Shown: positions 1-8,980 of the stretch, in pieces
Position numbering within the stretch: position 1 is the first letter of the stretch
How the letters are laid out: every line of letters starts with the position of its first letter
From: Cryobacterium sp. Y29
GTDB lineage: Bacteria > Actinomycetota > Actinomycetes > Actinomycetales > Microbacteriaceae
Assembly: GCF_002929825.1 (NCBI RefSeq)
Contig: NZ_PJJN01000036.1
Coordinates: 1-64,000 of the forward strand
DNA length: 64,000 nucleotides
Direction of reading: 5' to 3'
Position numbers and translations under genes: made by a program
Notes under the pieces: model-generated
The model's database searches: none
Told to the model about the DNA's origin: nothing
Seen by the model: only the letters and a program-made list of their open reading frames with translations

Positions 1-53
1 TTCACGGCCTCGTCTTTGTACTCAGGGGTGAAGTCCCGACGTGATCTTGCCAT
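1..53 (-). CDS. IS3-family transposase OrfA, N-terminal fragment at window edge
   Basis: Reading leftwards from an ATG at 53-51, the sequence encodes M-A-R-S-R-R-D-F-T-P-E-Y-K-D-E-A-V and then leaves the window. This is the typical opening of the helix-turn-helix OrfA subunit of actinobacterial IS3-family transposases, which binds the element ends and is followed by the DDE-containing OrfB. A purine-rich AGAGAG lies about 8 bases before the ATG. Only 17 residues are visible, so whether the rest is intact cannot be judged. Confidence 0.75.
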   Translation of the reverse strand, partial: MARSRRDFTPEYKDEAV

Positions 54-104
54 AGTGAACATTCTCTCTTGTGAGGTGTCCACACAACGGGGTCAAGGCC
101 ACAC
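1..104 (-). mobile_element. End of an IS3-family insertion sequence
   Basis: Upstream of the orfA start, the bases from about 77 to 104 (gaggtgtccacacaacgggg and following) resemble the terminal inverted repeat of IS3 elements, which commonly contain a GTGTGGACAC-like core. The exact outer end is a guess; neither the other end nor a target-site duplication is visible here. Confidence 0.5.
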
Positions 105-366
105 AGCAGACGGGACAGCAGGTTACTCGTGTCTCATAAGGGGTTCCTCTACGGGGCGTCGTTTAGCGTTTCTCTACGGGCGGTGTTCGAATCTCGCTTC
201 GTTTGGGCTGCAAGCGATTCGGCGAAGCATGGTCCGAGCTGTTCGACGCCGGAGCTCGGCATGAATCCGCCATCACGGGTGGCGCCGGGAATCGGCAGGG
301 CACCTGCACCATGTCGTTGCAGATAGAGGGCTCACCAGCCAGGTCCCGGCTTGGAAGCGTAGCCGC
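105..366. other. Intergenic stretch beside the IS end, no gene seen
   Basis: Short open frames on both strands lack a recognisable ribosome binding site and resemble no family I know. The stretch is probably flanking DNA or gene remnants next to the insertion sequence. Confidence 0.4.
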
Positions 367-780
367 TTAAGTCTCGCGTCGAAGGGCAATGATTCCCACA
401 TAGGCGAGCAGCGCCGTCCCGAACGTTCCGAGGAGACCAGCGAGGAAGGCCGCATCAACGCCGAACCCGGCGCTGAAGCTGATAACGACGTACCCGACAA
501 CCGCGAGCAGGACGAGAGCGACATAGGACAGTCGAACGAGCCAACCCACCGGTGAGCGAACGACGGACATGAGAATCACTGCCGCCAACGGTGCAAGCAT
601 CATCCCGCCGAAAAGCAGAGCCGGCGCCACCCGCACATCGCGGCCAGAGCAGGGACCCATGAGGCTACACGCCGTGGGGAATCCTTGCGCCATCCAGAAT
701 ACGAGCCAAGTAACGACCACAATGCCCACCGCGGGAAACACTAATCCGAGGCGACTTTTCAACCGAATATGGGAAGTCAT
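367..780 (-). CDS. Small four-helix membrane protein, unknown function
   Basis: A 137-residue protein with four hydrophobic segments at roughly residues 12-30, 54-73, 80-103 and 110-132, separated by short polar loops, and an Arg-rich C-terminus (ALRRET). The loop after helix 1 carries two Cys (residues 38 and 44). This is the layout of a polytopic inner-membrane protein. No family motif is recognised and no role is proposed. No convincing Shine-Dalgarno precedes the ATG, so the start is uncertain. It lies between the IS fragment and the sigma-factor operon and is transcribed in the same direction as the latter. Confidence 0.5.
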   Translation of the reverse strand: MTSHIRLKSRLGLVFPAVGIVVVTWLVFWMAQGFPTACSLMGPCSGRDVRVAPALLFGGMMLAPLAAVILMSVVRSPVGWLVRLSYVALVLLAVVGYVVISFSAGFGVDAAFLAGLLGTFGTALLAYVGIIALRRET

Positions 781-1092
781 GAAACGAGTGTGGCATTTCA
801 GCGCGCAGAATGAAGCACTACAGAGCCGTATGATGACAACTCGTTACCGCTCAGGCCGGGCGGCCAATTCCACGGTCCACGGCCGTTTCTAACCAAGCAG
901 GACGAGCGCCAAGCTCTGGGACCTCCAGCGCCACGAACGGAGCGGTCGTGGCGCGGCGGTTCAACATCGCTAGAAAACTCGGCGTCCCGTAGAGGGTTCC
1001 CCATACGGGCATCGTCGGTCGTCTGGCGGTGTCGGCGCTGCAGGGGCAGCGCACCACCGTGGATACGTAGATGCCCGACAGACATTCGCGAG
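781..1092. other. Gap with only weak reading frames
   Basis: A minus-strand frame at 851-1111 (86 codons) and an overlapping one at 798-1085 are open but have no clear start signal and match no family I know. The first, containing residues like LNRRATTAPFVALEVPELG, could be a gene remnant. I do not call a gene. Confidence 0.35.
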
Positions 1093-1638
1093 CTATCGAA
1101 CAGATAAACACGGAACGTGTGCGGGGTTCGCTGGCTCGGGCTGTGCCGTTGACAGTAGCGCTCGTAGCTGCACCTTGGCTTTTGTCATCCTGGACCTGAC
1201 GGTTGAGGGGTTGATGCCGAGGATCGCTGCTGCCTCGTGTGATTTGAAGCCGTCCCAGTAGATCAGTCGGACTAACTCAGCTTCACCAGCGGAAAGTGAT
1301 GCGATCGCATCTCGGAGCTCAACACCCTTGTCTTCGGGCTGGGGTGCCGGAGTGGTTCGCAGTTCGTCGGCGAATCTCTGCACCGCGGCCGAATGGCGTG
1401 CGGAGTTGCGCCGGGTGCTTCGCAACACATTGTGAGCGACACCGAATAGCCACATGCGTGCTTCTGTCGCGTCTGTCGGCATTTTGCGATGGAGTTTCCA
1501 TGCCGTGATGAGTAGTTCACCATATGCTTCGGCGGCGTCAGCCGGGTTCGAGATCCTGCGCAAGAAGTAGCGGAATAGGTCGCCTTCGCTGTCTTCTATA
1601 GCAATCTTAAAGCGAGCTTGACAGTCCGCAGTGCTCAC
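1093..1638 (-). CDS. ECF-type RNA polymerase sigma factor
   Basis: A 181-residue protein with the two-domain plan of extracytoplasmic-function sigma factors. Region 2 covers about residues 15-75 (GDLFRYFLRRI, then RMWLFGVAHNVL, the usual end of region 2). Region 4 covers about residues 110-165 (LSAGEAELVRLIYWDGFKSHEAAAILG followed by the helix-turn-helix STVRSRMTKAKVQL), which binds the -35 element. The GTG start at 1638 overlaps the TGA of the upstream gene as GTGA, so the two are translationally coupled. The open frame extends further upstream, but only inside that neighbour. The membrane-anchored neighbour is the likely partner. Confidence 0.85.
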   Translation of the reverse strand: MSTADCQARFKIAIEDSEGDLFRYFLRRISNPADAAEAYGELLITAWKLHRKMPTDATEARMWLFGVAHNVLRSTRRNSARHSAAVQRFADELRTTPAPQPEDKGVELRDAIASLSAGEAELVRLIYWDGFKSHEAAAILGINPSTVRSRMTKAKVQLRALLSTAQPEPANPAHVPCLSVR

Positions 1639-2219
1639 AAGCCGCACCCTTTCGCAGCCATGTTGAAGCCGACGAGATTGGGGTCGTAACCCTTTGCCTC
1701 CAGGTGCTCCCACGTCAAGTTCGAGGCCACCCGCCACACAGCCATCTGCTTGGCCTGCGCATCGCTCATGGTGATCGGATTTACATCGCCACTCTCATCG
1801 TGGGCGTTGAGATACGACTCGCGGTTTTCGGCTTCCATCTGCGCGGTGTCCAACGTTTCAAGATCGAGCGCGCCCACGAACGCTCGTGTTTCACGCGCGA
1901 TGCCTGAGTCCTCGTCTACGCCATCCAAGAAGCTGACGGTGAATCCTGCGAAGCAGATCTCGGCACCATTGGACACTGAGAAGACATTGTCCGCGACCCA
2001 ACCCCAGGGCGTTTCCATGCCGCCGGCAGCCATCGCTGCTGACCCTCCACCGAGAAGCAACGCCGAAGCTGCGACTCCGGCGGTCCACGCCCGCAAACGA
2101 CGTGCGCGGCGAGGCTTTGCTTCAGCGAGGATCCGCTCACGATGCCCGGCCAAGCCTGTGGGCAGCAGCGGCTGGGGTGCCGTCTCGCGGAGCAAGAGTT
2201 CGAGTTCAGTGTTGTCCAT
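1635..2219 (-). CDS. Membrane-anchored protein coupled to the ECF sigma factor, possible anti-sigma
   Basis: A 194-residue protein starting at ATG 2219 behind a strong GGAGGG. The N-terminal part (about residues 1-40) is cytoplasmic and basic near the membrane (KPRRARRLRAW). One hydrophobic segment follows at about residues 45-66, then an acidic extracytoplasmic domain of about 125 residues. Membrane-spanning proteins next to ECF sigma genes are commonly anti-sigma factors, but I see no zinc-binding HxxxCxxC motif, so that role is inferred from context. Unusually, it is the first gene of the pair, and its TGA overlaps the sigma-factor GTG. Confidence 0.6.
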   Translation of the reverse strand: MDNTELELLLRETAPQPLLPTGLAGHRERILAEAKPRRARRLRAWTAGVAASALLLGGGSAAMAAGGMETPWGWVADNVFSVSNGAEICFAGFTVSFLDGVDEDSGIARETRAFVGALDLETLDTAQMEAENRESYLNAHDESGDVNPITMSDAQAKQMAVWRVASNLTWEHLEAKGYDPNLVGFNMAAKGCGL

Positions 2220-2235
2220 GGTGCGCCCTCCGATA

Positions 2236-2255
2236 AGTACATTCACTCAGTACAT
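2236..2255 (-). promoter_or_regulatory. Direct repeat upstream of the sigma-factor operon
   Basis: The heptamer agtacat occurs twice (2236-2242 and 2249-2255) with a 13-bp period, a few bases upstream of the ribosome binding site of the operon. It could be a regulator site or part of a promoter; nothing identifies the binding protein. Confidence 0.25.
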
Positions 2256-2445
2256 GACCGCTGGCACCCGTTTTGTCCACGTGTCCTCAAGAATAGGTCA
2301 GGAGACAGTAACCCCAGTCATAGATACCGCGAGGTCCTCTCCAGGACTCGGAGCCGCTTTACGGGCTGAGGATCCGGGTCCTTCGGCTTTAGACTGCACC
2401 AGCCAAAAACGCTCGTATGGGGTTGGGTTTGCGGGCGGCTCGTGT

Positions 2446-2859
2446 TTAGTGGATCTCGTTGTCGGGGTGTTGGGCGTCGTAGCGGGCTCGGGAACGTCCG
2501 ATGGTTTCGCGGTGGTCGAGTGACCAGTCGGCGAGTTGTTTGACGAGGTGGGTCAGGCTGCTGCCCAGAGCTGTCAGTTCGTACGTGACTTGGGCGGGGA
2601 CTGTGGGGTACACGGTTCGGGTGACGAGGCCGTCGCGTTCCAGCCGGCGCACGGTCAGGGTCAGCATCCGCTGTGAGATTCCGTCGATACCTCGTTGTAA
2701 TTCGCGGAAGCGGCGTATGCCCGAGGCGAGTTCGACAATAACGAGGACGGACCATTTGTCGCCCACCCGGGTCAGTACGTCGCGGATACCGCAGTCCGGG
2801 TGCTCGTCCAGACCGCAGGGATCGAGGGATGCGGTTACTTGAATGTGACTGTCTGACAT
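2446..2859 (-). CDS. HxlR-family winged-helix transcriptional regulator
   Basis: A 137-residue protein with the full HxlR domain. An N-terminal Cys-containing segment (DPCGLDEHPDCGIRDVL) leads into GDKWSVLVIVELASG, then RRFRELQRGIDGISQRMLTLTVRRLERDGLV (winged helix, about residues 50-80) and the wing VPAQVTYELTALG. Such proteins act as dimers that bind promoter DNA, often sensing electrophiles or oxidants through the conserved Cys. It is divergent from an NAD(P)H-binding reductase gene with an 81-bp shared intergenic region carrying a palindrome, so it probably controls that gene and itself. Confidence 0.9.
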   Translation of the reverse strand: MSDSHIQVTASLDPCGLDEHPDCGIRDVLTRVGDKWSVLVIVELASGIRRFRELQRGIDGISQRMLTLTVRRLERDGLVTRTVYPTVPAQVTYELTALGSSLTHLVKQLADWSLDHRETIGRSRARYDAQHPDNEIH

Positions 2860-2882
2860 GAAAGTGCCTCCTTGTGGACTGC

Positions 2883-2895
2883 CGGTAAGTTACCG
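2883..2895. promoter_or_regulatory. Palindromic operator candidate in the HxlR/reductase intergenic region
   Basis: cggtaa-g-ttaccg is a perfect 6-bp inverted repeat with one central base. A related half-site (agttactg) lies at about 2908-2915. The position, midway between the divergent starts, suits a site for the adjacent HxlR regulator. Confidence 0.45.
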
Positions 2896-2940
2896 AAAAT
2901 GAGTCTAGTTACTGTTCAGAACCACCGAGGGGACTTGCAC

Positions 2941-3756
2941 ATGATTTTGGTTACCGGAGCATCCGGCCAGTTAGGCCGTGCCATCGTCGAACGACTGTCT
3001 GGCGGGGGCCAGCCTGTTGTCGCGGGCACACGACAACCAGTCGAGGGCAGCGAGCAACGACGCGTTGACTTCGACGAACCCGGTTCTTTGGACTTCACCG
3101 GTTTCGCCACGGTAGTCATGGTCTCCGCTGGATATGCCGAAGATGATGTGGTGATTGCTCGGCATGAAAGCGTCATCGCGGCTGCGGAACGCGACGGAGT
3201 GCAGCACCCGATTTACACCAGCGTCGCCACAGACGGAGACCACCTGGGCTTCGCCCTCGCGCATCGCTGGACCGAGCGGCGAATACAGAAAAGTACGTTG
3301 CGGTGGACTATTTTGCGCAATGGCCTCTATGCCGAGCTTTTTGGGTCGTTGCTCGCGCCGAGTGACGGCGTCATTACCGCGCCGTTTGGAACGGGCTCTG
3401 TGGCCGTGGTCACTCGCGCAGATTTGGCCGAGGCAGCGGCCGTCGTGGCAGCCGCACCCGACCGCCATATCAATCGTGTGTACGACCTGGTCGGGTCGAA
3501 TGCGGTAACTGCCGGCCAGATCGCCGAGGGGGCCGGTTTGCTCTACCGACCAGCTGCGCTCGGCAGTCACCGCGCTGCTCTCGAACAGAGCGGGCTGTTG
3601 CCCTTTCAGCCAGCGATGCTGCTTTCAATCTATTCGAGCGCGGCGCACGGATTTCTTTCGCGCACGACTACCGACCTCGGCGATCTCCTCGGTCGTGGGC
3701 CGACTGATCCCGAACCAACCGTCAGGCGCATCCTGGAGAAACAGGCGGCTGCCTGA
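2941..3756 (+). CDS. NAD(P)H-binding atypical short-chain reductase (NmrA/QorB-like)
   Basis: A 271-residue Rossmann-fold protein. The glycine motif VTGASGQLGRAIVERL is at residues 4-19, and the chain lacks the YxxxK catalytic pair of classical short-chain dehydrogenases, as in the atypical NmrA/QorB group (redox sensors and NAD(P)H:quinone reductases). The segment TILRNGLYAE is typical of the group. ATG 2941 follows GAGGGG at a good distance; an in-frame upstream ATG at 2872 lies inside the regulatory region and is less likely. Divergent HxlR/NmrA pairs are a common stress-responsive arrangement. The substrate is unknown. Confidence 0.85.
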   Translation: MILVTGASGQLGRAIVERLSGGGQPVVAGTRQPVEGSEQRRVDFDEPGSLDFTGFATVVMVSAGYAEDDVVIARHESVIAAAERDGVQHPIYTSVATDGDHLGFALAHRWTERRIQKSTLRWTILRNGLYAELFGSLLAPSDGVITAPFGTGSVAVVTRADLAEAAAVVAAAPDRHINRVYDLVGSNAVTAGQIAEGAGLLYRPAALGSHRAALEQSGLLPFQPAMLLSIYSSAAHGFLSRTTTDLGDLLGRGPTDPEPTVRRILEKQAAA

Positions 3757-4012
3757 TCCCACTGTGTCCCGCAAGACGTTCCCATTGCGGGCGGGTCGTC
3801 CCGGTAGCGTCGATGACACAATGGCCGCCGGTCGACTTCGCCTTCTTCGTTGCCGCCGTGCTGATGTGGACGCGGTCCTGGTCTATCGTGCTCGTTCTGA
3901 TGTCGCCCTACACCTACGCTCGGGCGTTTGGACACGCGAAAAAGTTGAGACGGAATTCGCGGCAGCTCACGGCCTGGCTCATAAGTCCTCTATCGTCAGT
4001 TGATCAGACAGA

Positions 4013-4870
4013 TTAGTCGGTTAAATGAGTGTTTGTAGGTCCGGGTTCGAGGTCATGCGTCTTGAGGATGTTGACGCCCAGGGCGCTCACGAATCCCAGG
4101 AGATCGCCCCTACCGCCCATGATTCGATTCAGAAGGAACTTGCCGGGTAGCGACTCGATGACCTTGTTCTCAAGCTCGTGAGGGTTTCGAACTTTGGCAG
4201 CAAATATTCTGGTGGTGTCCAAAGCGCGGAAGCTGTCCATCGCCAAGATCGACTGGGTTACGGTACCGAAAAGTAGACGGTCAAACTGCTTGCTCGATGA
4301 CCAGTGCTTACGGACCCGCGCCTTTACTCCACCAAAACTTTCCGTGACGCCTACATAGGCTTGGCAATAGTCGTCCAGAACCATCACATACAGACCGGTC
4401 TTGCCTTCCCACTCGTTTAGGTTCGTGACCTCGACCATCCCTTTTTTTGCTGCTACCGCGGCATCTATGGTTTGGTTGAACTCCGAGCGATCGAGCGCTG
4501 CAAAGTAGGCCATGTTCAGATCGTAGTTTTCCAGCGCTCTTGCCTGATGGGCGGTGCACCACTGATCCGTGTGGATTCTGTGGTCTACGTCTTCGTAGTA
4601 CTTGGCGCTCGCGTCCCAAAGCTTGGGTGCCAACTCTCGGGGGAAATGTATGGACGAGTGTTTGTTGATGCGAGCGTAGGTGCCTCGATCGATGTGAAGT
4701 CCGTACTTAGTTCCGCTCTGGACTGTCAGCCCGAAGTGTGTCGCGGTTTCTGCTGGTACATTTCCGGGCAGGCGCTTGTGACTCGTGCGCGGAGGTGCGG
4801 AATAGACCATCTTTAGAGCTGCCATTCGCTCAGCATAGGTACTGAGCTGATCGAACCTCTGGCAGTTCAC
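4013..4870 (-). CDS. GIY-YIG nuclease-fold protein with long N-terminal region
   Basis: A 285-residue protein. The C-terminal part has the GIY-YIG signature: GLY at 159-161, ten residues, then YVG at 172-174, followed by Arg185/187 (ARVRKHW), Glu232/234 in HELENKVIESL and Asn248 in KFLLN. All expected active-site positions appear to be present, so a metal-dependent DNA-cleaving activity is plausible. Residues 1-150 match nothing I recognise. A GTG start at 4870 behind GGGGGG is used; an ATG 45 bases further in is an alternative. Base composition is visibly lower in GC than the neighbours (33 of 60 in 4501-4560). It lies 363 bp from the integrase, which suggests island cargo. Confidence 0.65.
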   Translation of the reverse strand: MNCQRFDQLSTYAERMAALKMVYSAPPRTSHKRLPGNVPAETATHFGLTVQSGTKYGLHIDRGTYARINKHSSIHFPRELAPKLWDASAKYYEDVDHRIHTDQWCTAHQARALENYDLNMAYFAALDRSEFNQTIDAAVAAKKGMVEVTNLNEWEGKTGLYVMVLDDYCQAYVGVTESFGGVKARVRKHWSSSKQFDRLLFGTVTQSILAMDSFRALDTTRIFAAKVRNPHELENKVIESLPGKFLLNRIMGGRGDLLGFVSALGVNILKTHDLEPGPTNTHLTD

Positions 4871-4897
4871 CCCCCGCTGCGCCGCGTCGCTTCCTGA

Positions 4898-5005
4898 TCA
4901 CTTTTGAAGGTTGTGGAAGAAGCTGGCTTGGCCGCTCGGCACTAGAAGGAGAACGAGTCCGATGACGGCTGACACGGCACCGAGCACGACCTCGGATGCA
5001 CTCAC
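4898..5005 (-). CDS. Possible 35-residue membrane peptide
   Basis: A short frame from GTG 5005 encodes a peptide with one hydrophobic segment (VVLGAVSAVIGLVLLLVP) and a polar tail ending FFHNLQK. It ends 27 bases before the GIY-YIG gene in the same direction. The ribosome binding site is weak (GGGCTGG). It could be a small membrane protein or the remnant of a longer one, since the frame continues in-frame upstream with plausible residues (LEGFRLNPSGW) before a TAG. The rest of the gap, 5006-5233, shows no gene. Confidence 0.3.
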   Translation of the reverse strand: MSASEVVLGAVSAVIGLVLLLVPSGQASFFHNLQK

Positions 5006-5233
5006 CCAGCCCGAGGGGTTTAGTCTGAAACCTTCAAGGGCCCAGATTATATTTCGCCCATGTGGCTAGGTTTGGCGATCCACCAATTCCACGAGATGAA
5101 AGTCCTGCTGCGGGGTCCCTTGTGACCTTCCGGAATTCACGCCGATTTCGTGTGAACGCAGCCCGGCTACCACCACAGAAGAGTCGCTTCAATCTCCCGG
5201 AGGACAAAACGTTCGACGTTGGCGTTTAGAGAA

Positions 5234-6433
5234 TCAAGGGGTTCTTCGAGAAGGGGGAGCGAGCCGCTGCAGCACCGTCGCCGGCTCGGATTTTATGGCA
5301 CGGTCAGGCTCCGCGTAGTGCGCCTTTGTTGTCGACGTCGACGTGTGTCCGAGTACATCGGCCGCAGCCTGCAAACCCAGTTCGTTGGCGAGCAGCGTCG
5401 CCCCCGTTCGGCGGAAGGCGTGGGGGGTGATCCCCATGCCTTCGAGGCCAGCGTTCCGGAGAATCTCGCGGAATGTGCGCCGGACGTTGTGCGGCGCGAG
5501 TGGATTGCCGTTCCGCGTGAAGAACAGCAGATGTAGCCCGTTCTCCCCCTCGATCAGTGTCAGACGTCGTCGTATCACCTCTGCCGCGAATTGCGGCACG
5601 GCGACGATCCGGTTCGACTCATGCGTTTTGGGATGCGCCTGACGAAGCACGCCGACGCCACTTTGCATGACGAGCGTTCCGCGGATGTGCACCCAAGGCG
5701 GGTCGGCGGTCATATCTATGTCGCACTTTCGAAGCGCAAGCGTCTCGCCGATGCGCGTCGCCGTGCCGAGCATCACCTCGATCAGATCCCGCACCTGCCC
5801 GTCGGGTTTGGGCCCCATCCTGCCCTCCGCTGTGCGCCAGTCGCGGGCCGCGAGTCGGATTGCGGCTACCTGATCCGGCGTGAGCGCCTTCGGGGTGTGC
5901 CGGGGCTTCTTCATCCGCGAGGTTTCCTTCACCGGATTGCGCGCGATGATTCCCCGCCGCACCGCAAACCCCAGCACCATGCTGAGGATCGTGCGGGAGT
6001 GCTTGGCCCGCGTGTACGAGATCGCGCGCTGCACCTTCAGGAAAAGCTCAATGCGGCCGACGGTCACTTCTCGAACGGTGAAGTGCTCAAAAAAGGGAAG
6101 CACAAGCCCCCGAAGCTCGTACTCGTAGACGGTTTTTGTGCCGTTCGCGCGGTCGACGTCGAGCATCAGGTCCTCCAGCCAGGCCTCGGCCAGCATTCTG
6201 AACGGCGAGCCCGCGTTCACTGAATCGCCGACGTTACCGATGCGCATACGCGTGGCCAGCTCGACCTTGAGCGCGGTCTCCGCCGCGTTGCGACTCGAGC
6301 CGGTCGCGGTGACTTGCCTCGACTGACCGTCCCAGTCGCGAAAACGAGCCGACGCCCGGAAACGCCCTGCAGCGACCTCGGTCGTCTTTATCGCGCCGAA
6401 CGTGCTGATCGGCAGACGTGGTCGGCCAGCCAT
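5234..6433 (-). CDS. Phage/island-type tyrosine recombinase (integrase)
   Basis: A 399-residue site-specific recombinase. It has an N-terminal arm-binding region, a SAM-like core-binding domain (about 90-180) and a C-terminal catalytic domain (about 190-380) with Arg in GTATRIGETLAL, HxxR in TPHAFRRTG, His in VLGHTS and the tyrosine nucleophile in TKAHYAEPD. It integrates and, with an excisionase, excises mobile DNA at an att site. The ATG at 6433 shares one base with the TGA of the excisionase-like gene (TGATG); an open frame extends 20 codons further into that gene. It lies near the 3' end of tRNA-Arg, the classic target for such enzymes. Confidence 0.92.
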   Translation of the reverse strand: MAGRPRLPISTFGAIKTTEVAAGRFRASARFRDWDGQSRQVTATGSSRNAAETALKVELATRMRIGNVGDSVNAGSPFRMLAEAWLEDLMLDVDRANGTKTVYEYELRGLVLPFFEHFTVREVTVGRIELFLKVQRAISYTRAKHSRTILSMVLGFAVRRGIIARNPVKETSRMKKPRHTPKALTPDQVAAIRLAARDWRTAEGRMGPKPDGQVRDLIEVMLGTATRIGETLALRKCDIDMTADPPWVHIRGTLVMQSGVGVLRQAHPKTHESNRIVAVPQFAAEVIRRRLTLIEGENGLHLLFFTRNGNPLAPHNVRRTFREILRNAGLEGMGITPHAFRRTGATLLANELGLQAAADVLGHTSTSTTKAHYAEPDRAIKSEPATVLQRLAPPSRRTP

Positions 6434-6669
6434 CAGCGCTCGCCCCCACGGCCGCCCATGGACGGTACGGGCTCGTGAAGACCGTCCAGCCACCGAAGAA
6501 CATCGGAGACGCGGTAGCGGATCTCCCGTCCGACGCGAATGCCGGATGGGCCGCGGCCATCGGTACGCAGGTCGTAGATCGCCTGCACGTGCACACCGAG
6601 ATACTTGGCGAGCTCGCTCGTCGTGAGTACGGGCTCCAAACCGAGCCCCGAGAGATTTGTAGCATCCAT
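6433..6669 (-). CDS. Excisionase/AlpA-like helix-turn-helix protein
   Basis: A 78-residue protein with one MerR-like DNA-binding domain: LTTSELAKYLGVHVQAIYDLRTDG (helix-turn-helix), then the basic wing GPSGIRVGREIRYRVSDVLRWLDG. This is the standard form of excisionases and of small transcriptional activators encoded beside integrases. It is directly upstream of, and overlaps by one base, the integrase gene, so the two are co-translated. ATG 6669 is chosen because the domain starts soon after it; the longer frame back to 6813 is less likely. It probably bends att DNA during excision. Confidence 0.82.
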   Translation of the reverse strand: MDATNLSGLGLEPVLTTSELAKYLGVHVQAIYDLRTDGRGPSGIRVGREIRYRVSDVLRWLDGLHEPVPSMGGRGGER

Positions 6670-6840
6670 AACCCGTAGGTGCCCAAGGTCACACCAAGTT
6701 AATCGAACTGGGTCGCGTACCTTCCCTACGATCGCCCACACGGGGCGGGCGCCGCGGAATAAATGTTGAATAAACGTTGAGTGAATCAAGTCTTGCCCCT
6801 TCAGTAAGGACAAGAAACCCTGGTCAGACGATTTTTACGG

Positions 6841-6913
6841 TGCCCCCGGTAGGAATCGAACCTACGACAATCGGATTAGAAGGCCGGTGCTCTATCCACT
6901 GAGCTACGGGGGC
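6841..6913 (-). tRNA. tRNA-Arg(TCT)
   Basis: A 73-nt cloverleaf on the minus strand: acceptor GCCCCCG/CGGGGGC, D-arm with GCTCAGTGGATAGAGC, anticodon loop CTTCTAA (anticodon TCT), and T-arm with GGTTCGATTCC. CCA is not encoded. The anticodon stem has weak outer pairs (C27-A43 and C31-T39). Its 3' end faces the integrase gene, so it is the likely attachment site of the element to the left. Confidence 0.95.
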
Positions 6914-7074: not shown

Positions 7075-8430
7075 CTACTTTACTGGGGCAGGTGATGCGG
7101 CCGAAGATGACGCGATACTGCGGCGGACCAACGCGTCCATCGACGGCGTCGCGCTGACCAGTTGCTGCGTATACGGGTGCAGCGGGCTGTCGTAGACGTC
7201 GGCGGTCGGCCCGCATTCGACGATGCGTCCGTCGGAGATGACGGCCACGGTGTCGCAGAGGTGACGAATAACGCCGAGGTCGTGGGAGACGAACACGAGC
7301 GTGAGCTGGTACTCGTCGACCAGGTCGGCGAGCAGGTTCAAGACCTGGGCACGCACTGACACATCCAGTGCACTGACCGCCTCGTCTGCCACCAGAACCC
7401 GCGGCCTGGTGCTGAGCGCCCGTGCAATGGAAATGCGTTGCCGTTGACCACCGGAGAATTGGTGCGGATACCGGTGCATCACGTCGGCGTCGAGCCCGAC
7501 CGCCGCCAGTTGGGCTTCCACCCGGGCCAGCGCCTCGGTCCGACCGACGTGGCGCAAAGGTTCGGCGATGATGTCGCACACGCGCATGCGCGGATCCAGC
7601 GACCCCATCGGGTCTTGGAACACGATCTGCACCCGGCTGCGAAAATCGCGCAGTTGTCGTTCGGACGCTCCCCCGATCGGCTGGCCGAGCACGTCGACCG
7701 TGCCGGATGTCGGCTGCTCGAGGGCACAGAGAATGCGCATGAGGGTGGATTTACCGGAACCGGACTCCCCCACGATGCCAAACCGTTGCCCCTCGGCAAT
7801 ATCGAAGGACACGTCACGCAACCGTGCACGATCGGCGCCGGGGCGAACCAGCCGCCGCCACGACGATGACGATACTGCCGACTGAGGTCACGCACCGAAA
7901 TGGTGGGCGCCCCGGCCACCTCATTGAAGATGACCTTGGGACCGCCCAATTCAAGACGCTGGTGAGCGGCGCGGTGAGGCGGCAGGATCGGCACGGCTGT
8001 GGCATCCGTGTGAACGCGGCTGAGCCGGGAATCTGCCACACGCGGGGTGCCGATGACGGGCAGGGTGTGCAGCCGGCCCCGGTCGTGGACCGAGGAGAGA
8101 TCCGAGGCCGCGATCAGTTTTTGAGTATACGGATGCTGCGGCGCGGTCAGCACGCGCCCGACCGGCCCGTCCTCGACGATCTCGCCCTGGTACATCACAA
8201 GAACCCGCTGGCATACCTCGGCGACCACCGCGATGTCGTGGGTGATCAGCAGCAACGCGGTACCACGGTCGGCGACGAGGTTGCCGATGAGCTTCAGCAC
8301 CTCGGCTTGCGCGGTCACATCGAGCGCCGTGGTCGGTTCGTCGCAGAGCAGTAGCTCGGGGTCGTTGGCCATGGCCAGCATGACTCGCTGACGCTGTCCG
8401 CCGGAGAGTTGATGTGGAAGGGCGCGGTCA
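7075..8430 (-). pseudogene. Remnant of a fused dipeptide/oligopeptide ABC transporter ATPase (DppD-DppF type)
   Basis: Two ATP-binding domains in tandem. The first is cut off: it begins at the signature ([12 protein letters not shown]), keeps Walker B ([12 protein letters not shown]) and the H-loop (LLITHD), and has lost Walker A. The second has everything ([39 protein letters not shown]) and the oligopeptide-type C-terminal tail with HPYTQQL. Between them the frame breaks: one frame reads APAPIVHG, and one base must be restored near 7822-7826 to continue as LRDVSFD. The intact second half could still be translated from a TTG at 7821, but without permeases it has no obvious use. Confidence 0.88.
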
Positions 8431-8980
8431 GTCTCGGAAGGCATCGCTGGCATTGATCATCGACAGCGTGACCTCGCCGGTACTGGCGCCGTCAAGCACC
8501 TGGAAGTCGGAATTGGCCTTGAATTGATCGACGACCTGAAACTGCGAGATGCCTGAGATGAGGTTGATATCGCCGCTGAAGAACGCGTTGGTCTGCGCCG
8601 TGGCATCCGTGAAGAAACGCAGGGTGACGTCGCTCATGTAGGGCGCCTCGCCCCAATAGTCGGCGTTGGCGGCGAGCACGAGGCTGTCGCCGGTTTTAAA
8701 CGAGCTGACCGTGTACGGACCGGTACCAATCGGAGCGGTCGCCAGGTCAGCGATATCGGATTCGGTGAACATCGTGCCGACCGGACCGCTTATGTTGAAG
8801 AGCCAGCTGTTGCTCGACTTTGAAAGGGTGATGCGCGCCTCGGTATCGCTGACGGCTTCAATACTCGCGATCGGGTCAAGGTAGGTGGGCCCGTTGGCGG
8901 TAACAACCGACCAGGGCCATGGACGCGGCCATGACCGTCGCAATGCCGACGAACATGTTGCGCCGGGTGGGTGACCTCAT
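8431..8980 (-). pseudogene. Remnant of a dipeptide ABC transporter substrate-binding lipoprotein
   Basis: It starts with a lipoprotein signal peptide from ATG 8980 (MRSPTRRNMFVGIATVMAAS then MALVGC). Soon after, the frame ends at TGA, while another frame continues as VVTANGPTYLDPIASIEAVSD, which is mid-domain sequence of family-5 (SBP_bac_5) binding proteins. This implies an internal deletion of the N-terminal lobe near 8900-8920. The mid-part runs through GTGPYTVSSFKTGDSLVLAA to [11 protein letters not shown] and is then joined directly to the middle of the ATPase gene. The C-terminal lobe, both permeases and the ATPase N-terminus are therefore missing. Confidence 0.85.

Follow-up and report, generated by a model that had tools for sequence, protein, structure and literature searches.

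An UzuA-type GIY-YIG protein in the cargo position behind an integrase module at tRNA-Arg in Cryobacterium sp. Y29

Directly behind an integrase of Cryobacterium sp. Y29 lies a gene of conspicuously low GC content, and the question it raises is what its product does there: whether it defends the cell, spreads by homing or maintains the element that carries it. These three candidate roles were named in a preliminary description of the locus, which saw an apparently complete GIY-YIG active site and an N-terminal half without a recognized match. The window analyzed here is a stretch of 64,000 nucleotides (NZ_PJJN01000036.1, positions 1 to 64,000) that starts at a contig end (C35:1) of a genome assembled in 37 contigs. 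The features of the locus are as follows.

4013..4870 (stop included), minus strand: uzuA-like gene encoding a 285-aa GIY-YIG protein (open reading frame and PADLOC UzuA profile PDLC03975)
4106..4405, minus strand: GIY-YIG domain, residues ~156-255 (GLY159-161, YVG172-174, R185, H189, E234, N248; fold match to I-TevI, 1mk0)
4406..4750, minus strand: family-specific N-terminal region, residues ~41-155 (HFG strand pair, variable loop, NYDLNM helical hairpin)
4919..5102, no strand: probable remnant fragment, 87% identical to L138:11362-11546 in the same genome
5234..6493, minus strand: tyrosine integrase, 419 aa, intact frame (Pfam Phage_integrase, E=1.6e-20; PHROG integrase, E=2e-50)
6433..6813, minus strand: excisionase-like helix-turn-helix protein (HTH_17, E=5.9e-13; NCBIfam 'excise', 30.3 bits against a cut-off of 28.8)
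6839..6913, minus strand: tRNA-Arg(tct), inferred integration site (the related integrases in L127, L128 and L129 stand behind the same tRNA)
6839..6877, minus strand: inferred attachment core in the 3' part of the tRNA, repeated 8.2 kb away in the relative L129 (genome G408)

Read along the tRNA, tRNA-Arg(tct) is followed by the excisionase-like gene, the integrase and the uzuA-like gene, all on one strand and with a gap of ~365 bp between the last two. Both the proximity to integrase and excisionase genes and the lower GC content described at the outset were borne out: the uzuA-like gene stands at 54.2%, whereas the window as a whole reaches 64.5%, the integrase 64.9% and the excisionase-like gene 60.6%, and the two genes that follow on its other side lie at 61-62%. 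The frame at 4013..4870 opens with GTG and continues for 285 aa with zero internal stops. The start codon is nevertheless uncertain because residues 1-40 are modelled at low confidence, only a run of G precedes the GTG and homologues such as L014 start near residue 44. Promoter and terminator scans returned sites no commoner than in shuffled sequence (within about one standard deviation). The fragment between the uzuA-like gene and the integrase (184 bp) is probably the remnant of an older insertion; over its first part it shares 88% identity with L130:14630-14775, a stretch that overlaps a 131-aa ORF there. This suggests turnover at the spot. Downstream of the uzuA-like gene, positions 2446-3756 hold a divergent HxlR-type regulator and an NmrA-like NAD(P)-binding protein, possibly more cargo. 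On the far side, beside the tRNA, ABC-transporter ATPase and substrate-binding-like ORFs at 7075-8943 look fragmented at the level of ORFs, which would fit the decay of a peptide transporter operon.

Judged by its sequence, the product of 4013..4870 is an intact member of the catalogued Uzume family, the PADLOC UzuA profile PDLC03975 covering residues 29-275 with E=1.2e-85 (profile positions 38-267 of 277). General family resources did not recognize the protein: Pfam gave non-significant matches only (E 0.05 and 0.11) and none to the GIY-YIG family PF01541 at E<=1, NCBIfam and PHROGs gave zero matches, and a PDB sequence search returned no credible hit (best E 0.4 and 0.32). One homologue is already called "GIY-YIG nuclease family protein" in public annotation. 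Relatives were found with an alignment, which located 58 in genome contigs where a single-sequence scan of the same contigs located none, and a further 13 in IMG/VR viral loci. The family alignment used below consists of the window protein and 52 of these 71 loci, several of them with an N-terminal extension removed by coordinates. Left out were partial, short or divergent ORFs (L028, L032, L034, L044, L062, L064, L065, L066), members with long extra sequence (L036, L037, L039, L045, L049, L054), near-duplicates (L047, L052, L068, L072, L077) and, from outside the 71, the relatives L003-L008 and L132 that other searches had found. All 53 aligned members match PDLC03975, and 27 of the 53 match PF01541 at E<=0.01.

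Twelve positions do not vary across the 53 sequences (F131, Y161, D166, Q170, Y172, G174, R185, H189, W190, D218, E234 and N248), and at least 90% conservation is seen at H45-F46-G47, Y65, N115, D117, L151, G159 and others. The elements of the GIY-YIG motif are thus all present (G159/Y161, Y172/G174, R185, E234 and N248), each invariant except G159 (at least 90%), and the motif of the window protein reads GLYVM...YVG. The alignment shows a complete and conserved predicted active site in the C-terminal domain, in line with the pattern of GLY, YVG, Arg, Glu and Asn that had first been seen; Tyr161, Tyr172, Arg185, Glu234 and Asn248 are among the invariant residues. The Enterococcus gilvus relative L008 (L008:7902-8813), outside the alignment, has YFS in place of the YIG element and is possibly inactive. 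A dN/dS of ~0.3, estimated for the pairs window-L012 and L012-L013, is as expected under constraint on the protein, other pairs being near or beyond synonymous saturation.

The AlphaFold model of the UzuA-like protein has a mean pLDDT of 87.5, with means over 10-residue blocks above 90 across residues 41 to 250. Foldseek placed UvrC, Eco29kI and I-TevI within the first nine PDB rows, though with weak E-values (best 0.3). Structural comparison aligned the model with I-TevI (1mk0; Z 7.4, 86 residues, rmsd 2.8 A, model range 156..255), UvrC (1yd6; Z 7.1, 90 residues, rmsd 2.9 A), Eco29kI (Z 4.5, 91 residues, rmsd 3.3 A) and PD-T4-3/CMoRE (9u7z; Z 4.0, 83 residues, rmsd 3.6 A). The N-terminal domain of a plant glutaredoxin (2lwf; Z 7.4, rmsd 5.8), which has a GIY-YIG fold, was also matched; with it included, all of the nine top-ranking structural matches are to GIY-YIG domains. 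A Z below 8, and the best here is 7.4, can reflect a common arrangement, but these modest values were accepted since they agree with the conserved motif. A GIY-YIG fold of the modelled C-terminal domain is well supported. The assignment as a whole rests on the PF01541 matches of 27 of the 53 members, the invariant residues and the fold comparison.

The N-terminal part (residues ~41-155) is conserved within the family, its helical hairpin carrying NYDLNM in the window protein and NFDLNM in the family, while the length of the loop differs among members, some having 100 or more extra residues there. L036, L049 and L054 have a long insert inside the region at the variable loop, and L046 has extra sequence before the HFG motif and after the nuclease domain. 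Structure prediction of the region, proposed in the preliminary description as a check, is confident when the region is folded alone (pLDDT 91.7, pTM 0.67). Searched against the PDB by Foldseek, it gave 11 rows with a best E of 1.5 and none at E<=0.001, and structural comparison returned a single row with Z>=2 (9e2g, Z 2.1, 46 residues). This lack of a PDB match does not prove that the modelled region is a new fold. The view that the N-terminal half matches nothing therefore stands as regards Pfam and PDB but not PADLOC, since PDLC03975 covers it. A known housekeeping domain here would have spoken against the horizontally acquired cargo gene first proposed, and none was found. Pfam, PHROGs, NCBIfam and PADLOC likewise recognized no separate DNA-binding module in the protein.

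We consider it reasonably probable (roughly 0.6) that the gene encodes a single-gene anti-phage nuclease of the UzuA (PDLC03975) type and that it is exchangeable cargo located behind a Cryobacterium excisionase-integrase module that targets tRNA-Arg. Among the roles first listed, defence is thus the best supported, whereas little speaks for homing or element maintenance. The C-terminal domain would cut DNA with a metal ion as GIY-YIG enzymes do, and the N-terminal part, with its HFG motif, variable loop and NFDLNM helical hairpin, may select the DNA to be cut, conceivably by a phage-specific modification, structure or sequence. That recognition role is our inference only. No neighbor family recurs in at least three of 55 homologue loci (among 307 crude gene calls covering three genes per side, in distant genomes), and because no partner gene is conserved beside uzuA, it would be the recognition rule that protects self DNA, as happens in modification-dependent (type IV) restriction. 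A bolder and doubtful version is that the N-terminal region is an undescribed recognition fold which senses a feature of invading DNA, for example a modified base, and licenses the GIY-YIG domain, so that UzuA would restrict DNA by its modification or structure with one protein, its domains in the opposite order to those of CMoRE, and that Cryobacterium excisionase-integrase modules swap unrelated GIY-YIG defence nucleases in one slot.

Several defence nucleases harm the infected host (abortive infection), and the absence of a conserved self-protection partner among these loci would also suit an abortive-infection or tRNA/RNA-targeting nuclease that damages the host instead of cutting phage DNA. 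We regard this as improbable, though it fares best among the alternatives, since the characterized GIY-YIG defence proteins CMoRE/PD-T4-3 (PMC12923530) and SNIPE (PMC13190303) cut phage DNA according to the available parts of these reports.

Five plasmid records carry a homologue, while INPHARED phage records gave no match to the UzuA-like protein by tblastn at E<=1e-5. The PDLC03975 type occurs in 2 of 396 Actinomycetota genomes and the gene in 3 of 57 Cryobacterium genomes, its own included in both counts, the three Cryobacterium genomes falling in two parts of the tree. G424 is one of the other two; among the relatives found by alignment, L028 lies on contig NZ_SOFG01000011.1 of Cryobacterium algoricola. 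The family tree groups the window copy with Microbacterium memoriense (100/94) and places the two other Cryobacterium copies inside a mostly Arthrobacter group (99/96). Between the window protein and its Microbacterium homologue the identity is 65%. Owing to this patchy distribution and to the fit of the tree, the gene was most likely acquired horizontally, as had been suggested from its composition and surroundings.

Integrases 92-94% identical to that of the window, partly matching, stand behind the same tRNA-Arg in L127, L128 and L129, whose genomes (G407, G412, G408) have no UzuA gene. L129 carries the 3' end of the tRNA twice, the copies 8.2 kb apart and with exact repeats of 53 and 17 bp. 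In the genome under study, the 3' end of tRNA-Arg was not found again within window positions 1-6838, nor in L138, the stretch between a nadE-like flank and the point where contig C28 ends, and no left attachment site was located there. In L131, L134, L135 and L136, a conserved flank with this nadE-like ORF, presumably nadE as named from its sequence, follows ~0.1 to 1.3 kb after the tRNA. The corresponding flank of the genome under study is 16 kb short of the end of contig C28, and the distance from tRNA to flank would be ~23 kb or more if C28 and C35 adjoin. Between the nadE-like ORF and the contig end, L138:6292-8154 holds a transposase-like ORF (IS30-like by eye).

Cargo was compared across 20 loci with related integrases, namely the window and 19 others of the same genus with identities of 40-94%; these are 20 of 21 places with at least 198 bits, the one from another genus being left out. 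A tRNA lies 232-889 bp upstream of the matched part of the integrase in 17 of the 20 (Arg 4, Met 5, Ala 2, Pro 6), and what follows the integrase differs from locus to locus. The genome under study contributes a second locus, in which a 71% identical integrase stands at tRNA-Met and an UzuA of another type follows 371 bp behind.

C34:68409-69122 (L152:8409-9233 and L152:6923-7987), no strand given: second integrase-linked cargo of the same genome, other-type UzuA and PD-(D/E)XK protein

The other-type UzuA at C34:68409-69122 matches PDLC03973 (E=1.7e-47) and has no Pfam match, and the PD-(D/E)XK protein after it matches PDC-S26. Both cargo regions of the genome share a stretch of 104 bp at 79% identity (window 3766-3869, L152:4867-4970). 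Ten hand-picked cargo proteins from 7 of the 19 relative loci were scanned. PADLOC found UzuA and PDC-S26 in L152, HEC-07 in L155 (E=1.1e-10), LmuA and LmuB (Lamassu) in L157 and PDC-S28 in L167, and L162 carries an LmuB-like protein with a SIR2 protein (Pfam SIR2_2). Scanned cargo gave no defence match in L158 and only a generic HTH match in L159. The defence-like genes begin less than 4 kb behind the integrase. As a control, 86 chromosomal genes of the genus matched 9 PADLOC families at E<=1e-10 (mad3 and mad8 with 4 members each, AriA with 3, two others with 2 and four with 1; two ShosA and one PsyrA are noted among the latter). Because this background is not zero, the defence-like cargo is described as a pattern and not as an enrichment.

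These loci also bear on the idea that the UzuA-like protein is an accessory of the integrated element, acting in its excision, stability or competition with sister elements and not against phage. Its position ~365 bp behind the integrase fits, as does the occurrence of another GIY-YIG-motif protein in the same slot behind the 71% identical integrase of the same genome. However, the genomes of L127, L128 and L129, whose integrases are the closer relatives at this tRNA, lack the gene, other slots carry unrelated genes, several of them defence-like, and at most 1 of 107 genes adjacent to the homologues is a Phage_integrase. An accessory function, and with it the element maintenance first considered, thus seems improbable as well, slightly more so than harm to the infected host.

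PADLOC's UzuA comprises two distinct architectures, PDLC03975 on the one hand and PDLC03973/PDLC03974 on the other. The latter is a different protein that, by eye, also ends in a C-terminal GIY-YIG motif and is found in the same genome behind a related integrase; its N-terminal part differs from that of the window protein. Comparison of the two profiles aligned only 35 columns in the nuclease core (probability 9.8), and the family profile fails to detect the one other-type UzuA among neighbor genes. With the genome under study counted, PDLC03973 matches 8 of 396 Actinomycetota genomes, but the E-value in three of these is only 1e-5 to 1e-4, and the other type reaches E<=0.001 in 7 of 49 genomes carrying the PDLC03975 type, some with fragments only. 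In Cohnella ginsengisoli (L062), an other-type UzuA lies directly upstream of the PDLC03975 type and is apparently broken (5315-5815, 5875-6456). The presence of two GIY-YIG-motif architectures under one system name is relevant to any count or test of Uzume; the assignment here refers to PDLC03975, and the experimentally tested Uzume may be either architecture.

Across the family, the 107 genes adjacent to 55 homologues belong mainly to ordinary cellular Pfam families (among the first 25 of 123 listed), and each PADLOC model matches at most one of these genes. An integrase of the window type lies near homologues only in L009 (28%) and L071 (22%) of 85 loci (one-sequence tblastn, E<=1e-6). The link to mobile elements is supported for the window copy and for the plasmid and viral-contig copies, but a family-wide link is not, because the adjacent genes are mainly ordinary cellular ones. 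Neighborhood statistics, a check proposed in the preliminary description, revealed no recurrent defence or integrase neighbors at the 55 loci. Its other concern, that homologues might be core chromosomal genes, is answered in part: they are sporadic (2/396 and 3/57), but their adjacent genes are mainly ordinary. A free-standing GIY-YIG homing endonuclease that spreads by cutting a single target site and was captured close to the integrase is, by a small margin, the least probable alternative, since homing enzymes return to a fixed site and no recurrent neighborhood was seen (in the crude gene calls from distant genomes), all 53 aligned members fit the UzuA model and the window protein has no recognized separate DNA-binding module, even though a fold search against predicted viral proteins named many GIY-YIG, intron-associated or homing endonucleases (none at E<=0.001), 2 of the 53 members also match a PADLOC HEase model and some homologues stand alone among core genes, for example L003 between ffh-like and ftsY-like ORFs.

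Under the anti-phage reading, the invariant catalytic residues, the confident model and an N-terminal part that is conserved but matches no known fold open the mechanism of Uzume to testing by point mutation and DNA-cutting assays. Uzume reportedly was introduced by Millman et al. 2022, and it works as a single gene. The window protein agrees with it (PDLC03975) in the profile match over residues 29-275 and in having no conserved partner gene, and no difference was found. In the available parts of three papers, Uzume is grouped with systems whose mechanism is unknown or poorly understood (PMC10482375, PMC12926258, PMC10740426). In the Bacillus cereus group it is described as mostly plasmid-borne (PMC11811056), and it is named as one of the systems that actinobacterial prophages encode (PMC10023795). 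Our literature search found no paper combining Uzume and GIY-YIG. CMoRE/PD-T4-3, which cuts hydroxymethylated phage DNA, is similar in that a single protein joins a GIY-YIG nuclease used in defence to one additional domain whose ancestry is unknown (Z 4.0); as far as the available text describes it, its nuclease domain comes first and its sensor last, and a third tyrosine gives the motif GIYxY-YIG (PMC12923530). In contrast, the nuclease domain of the UzuA-like protein comes last, and neither G159 nor M163 is a tyrosine, so by these published marks it is not a CMoRE. SNIPE likewise uses a C-terminal GIY-YIG nuclease against phage, cutting the DNA during injection, and is described in the available text as having a transmembrane segment and DUF4041 (PMC13190303); this domain, the mark of SNIPE / PD-lambda-1, was not found in the UzuA-like protein by Pfam at E<=1. 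Structural likeness extends to I-TevI, the N-terminal domain of UvrC and R.Eco29kI (Z 7.4, 7.1 and 4.5). The R-x3-H spacing of R185 and H189 is that of I-TevI and Eco29kI. These enzymes share the nuclease fold with the UzuA-like protein and differ from it in their accompanying domains and roles.
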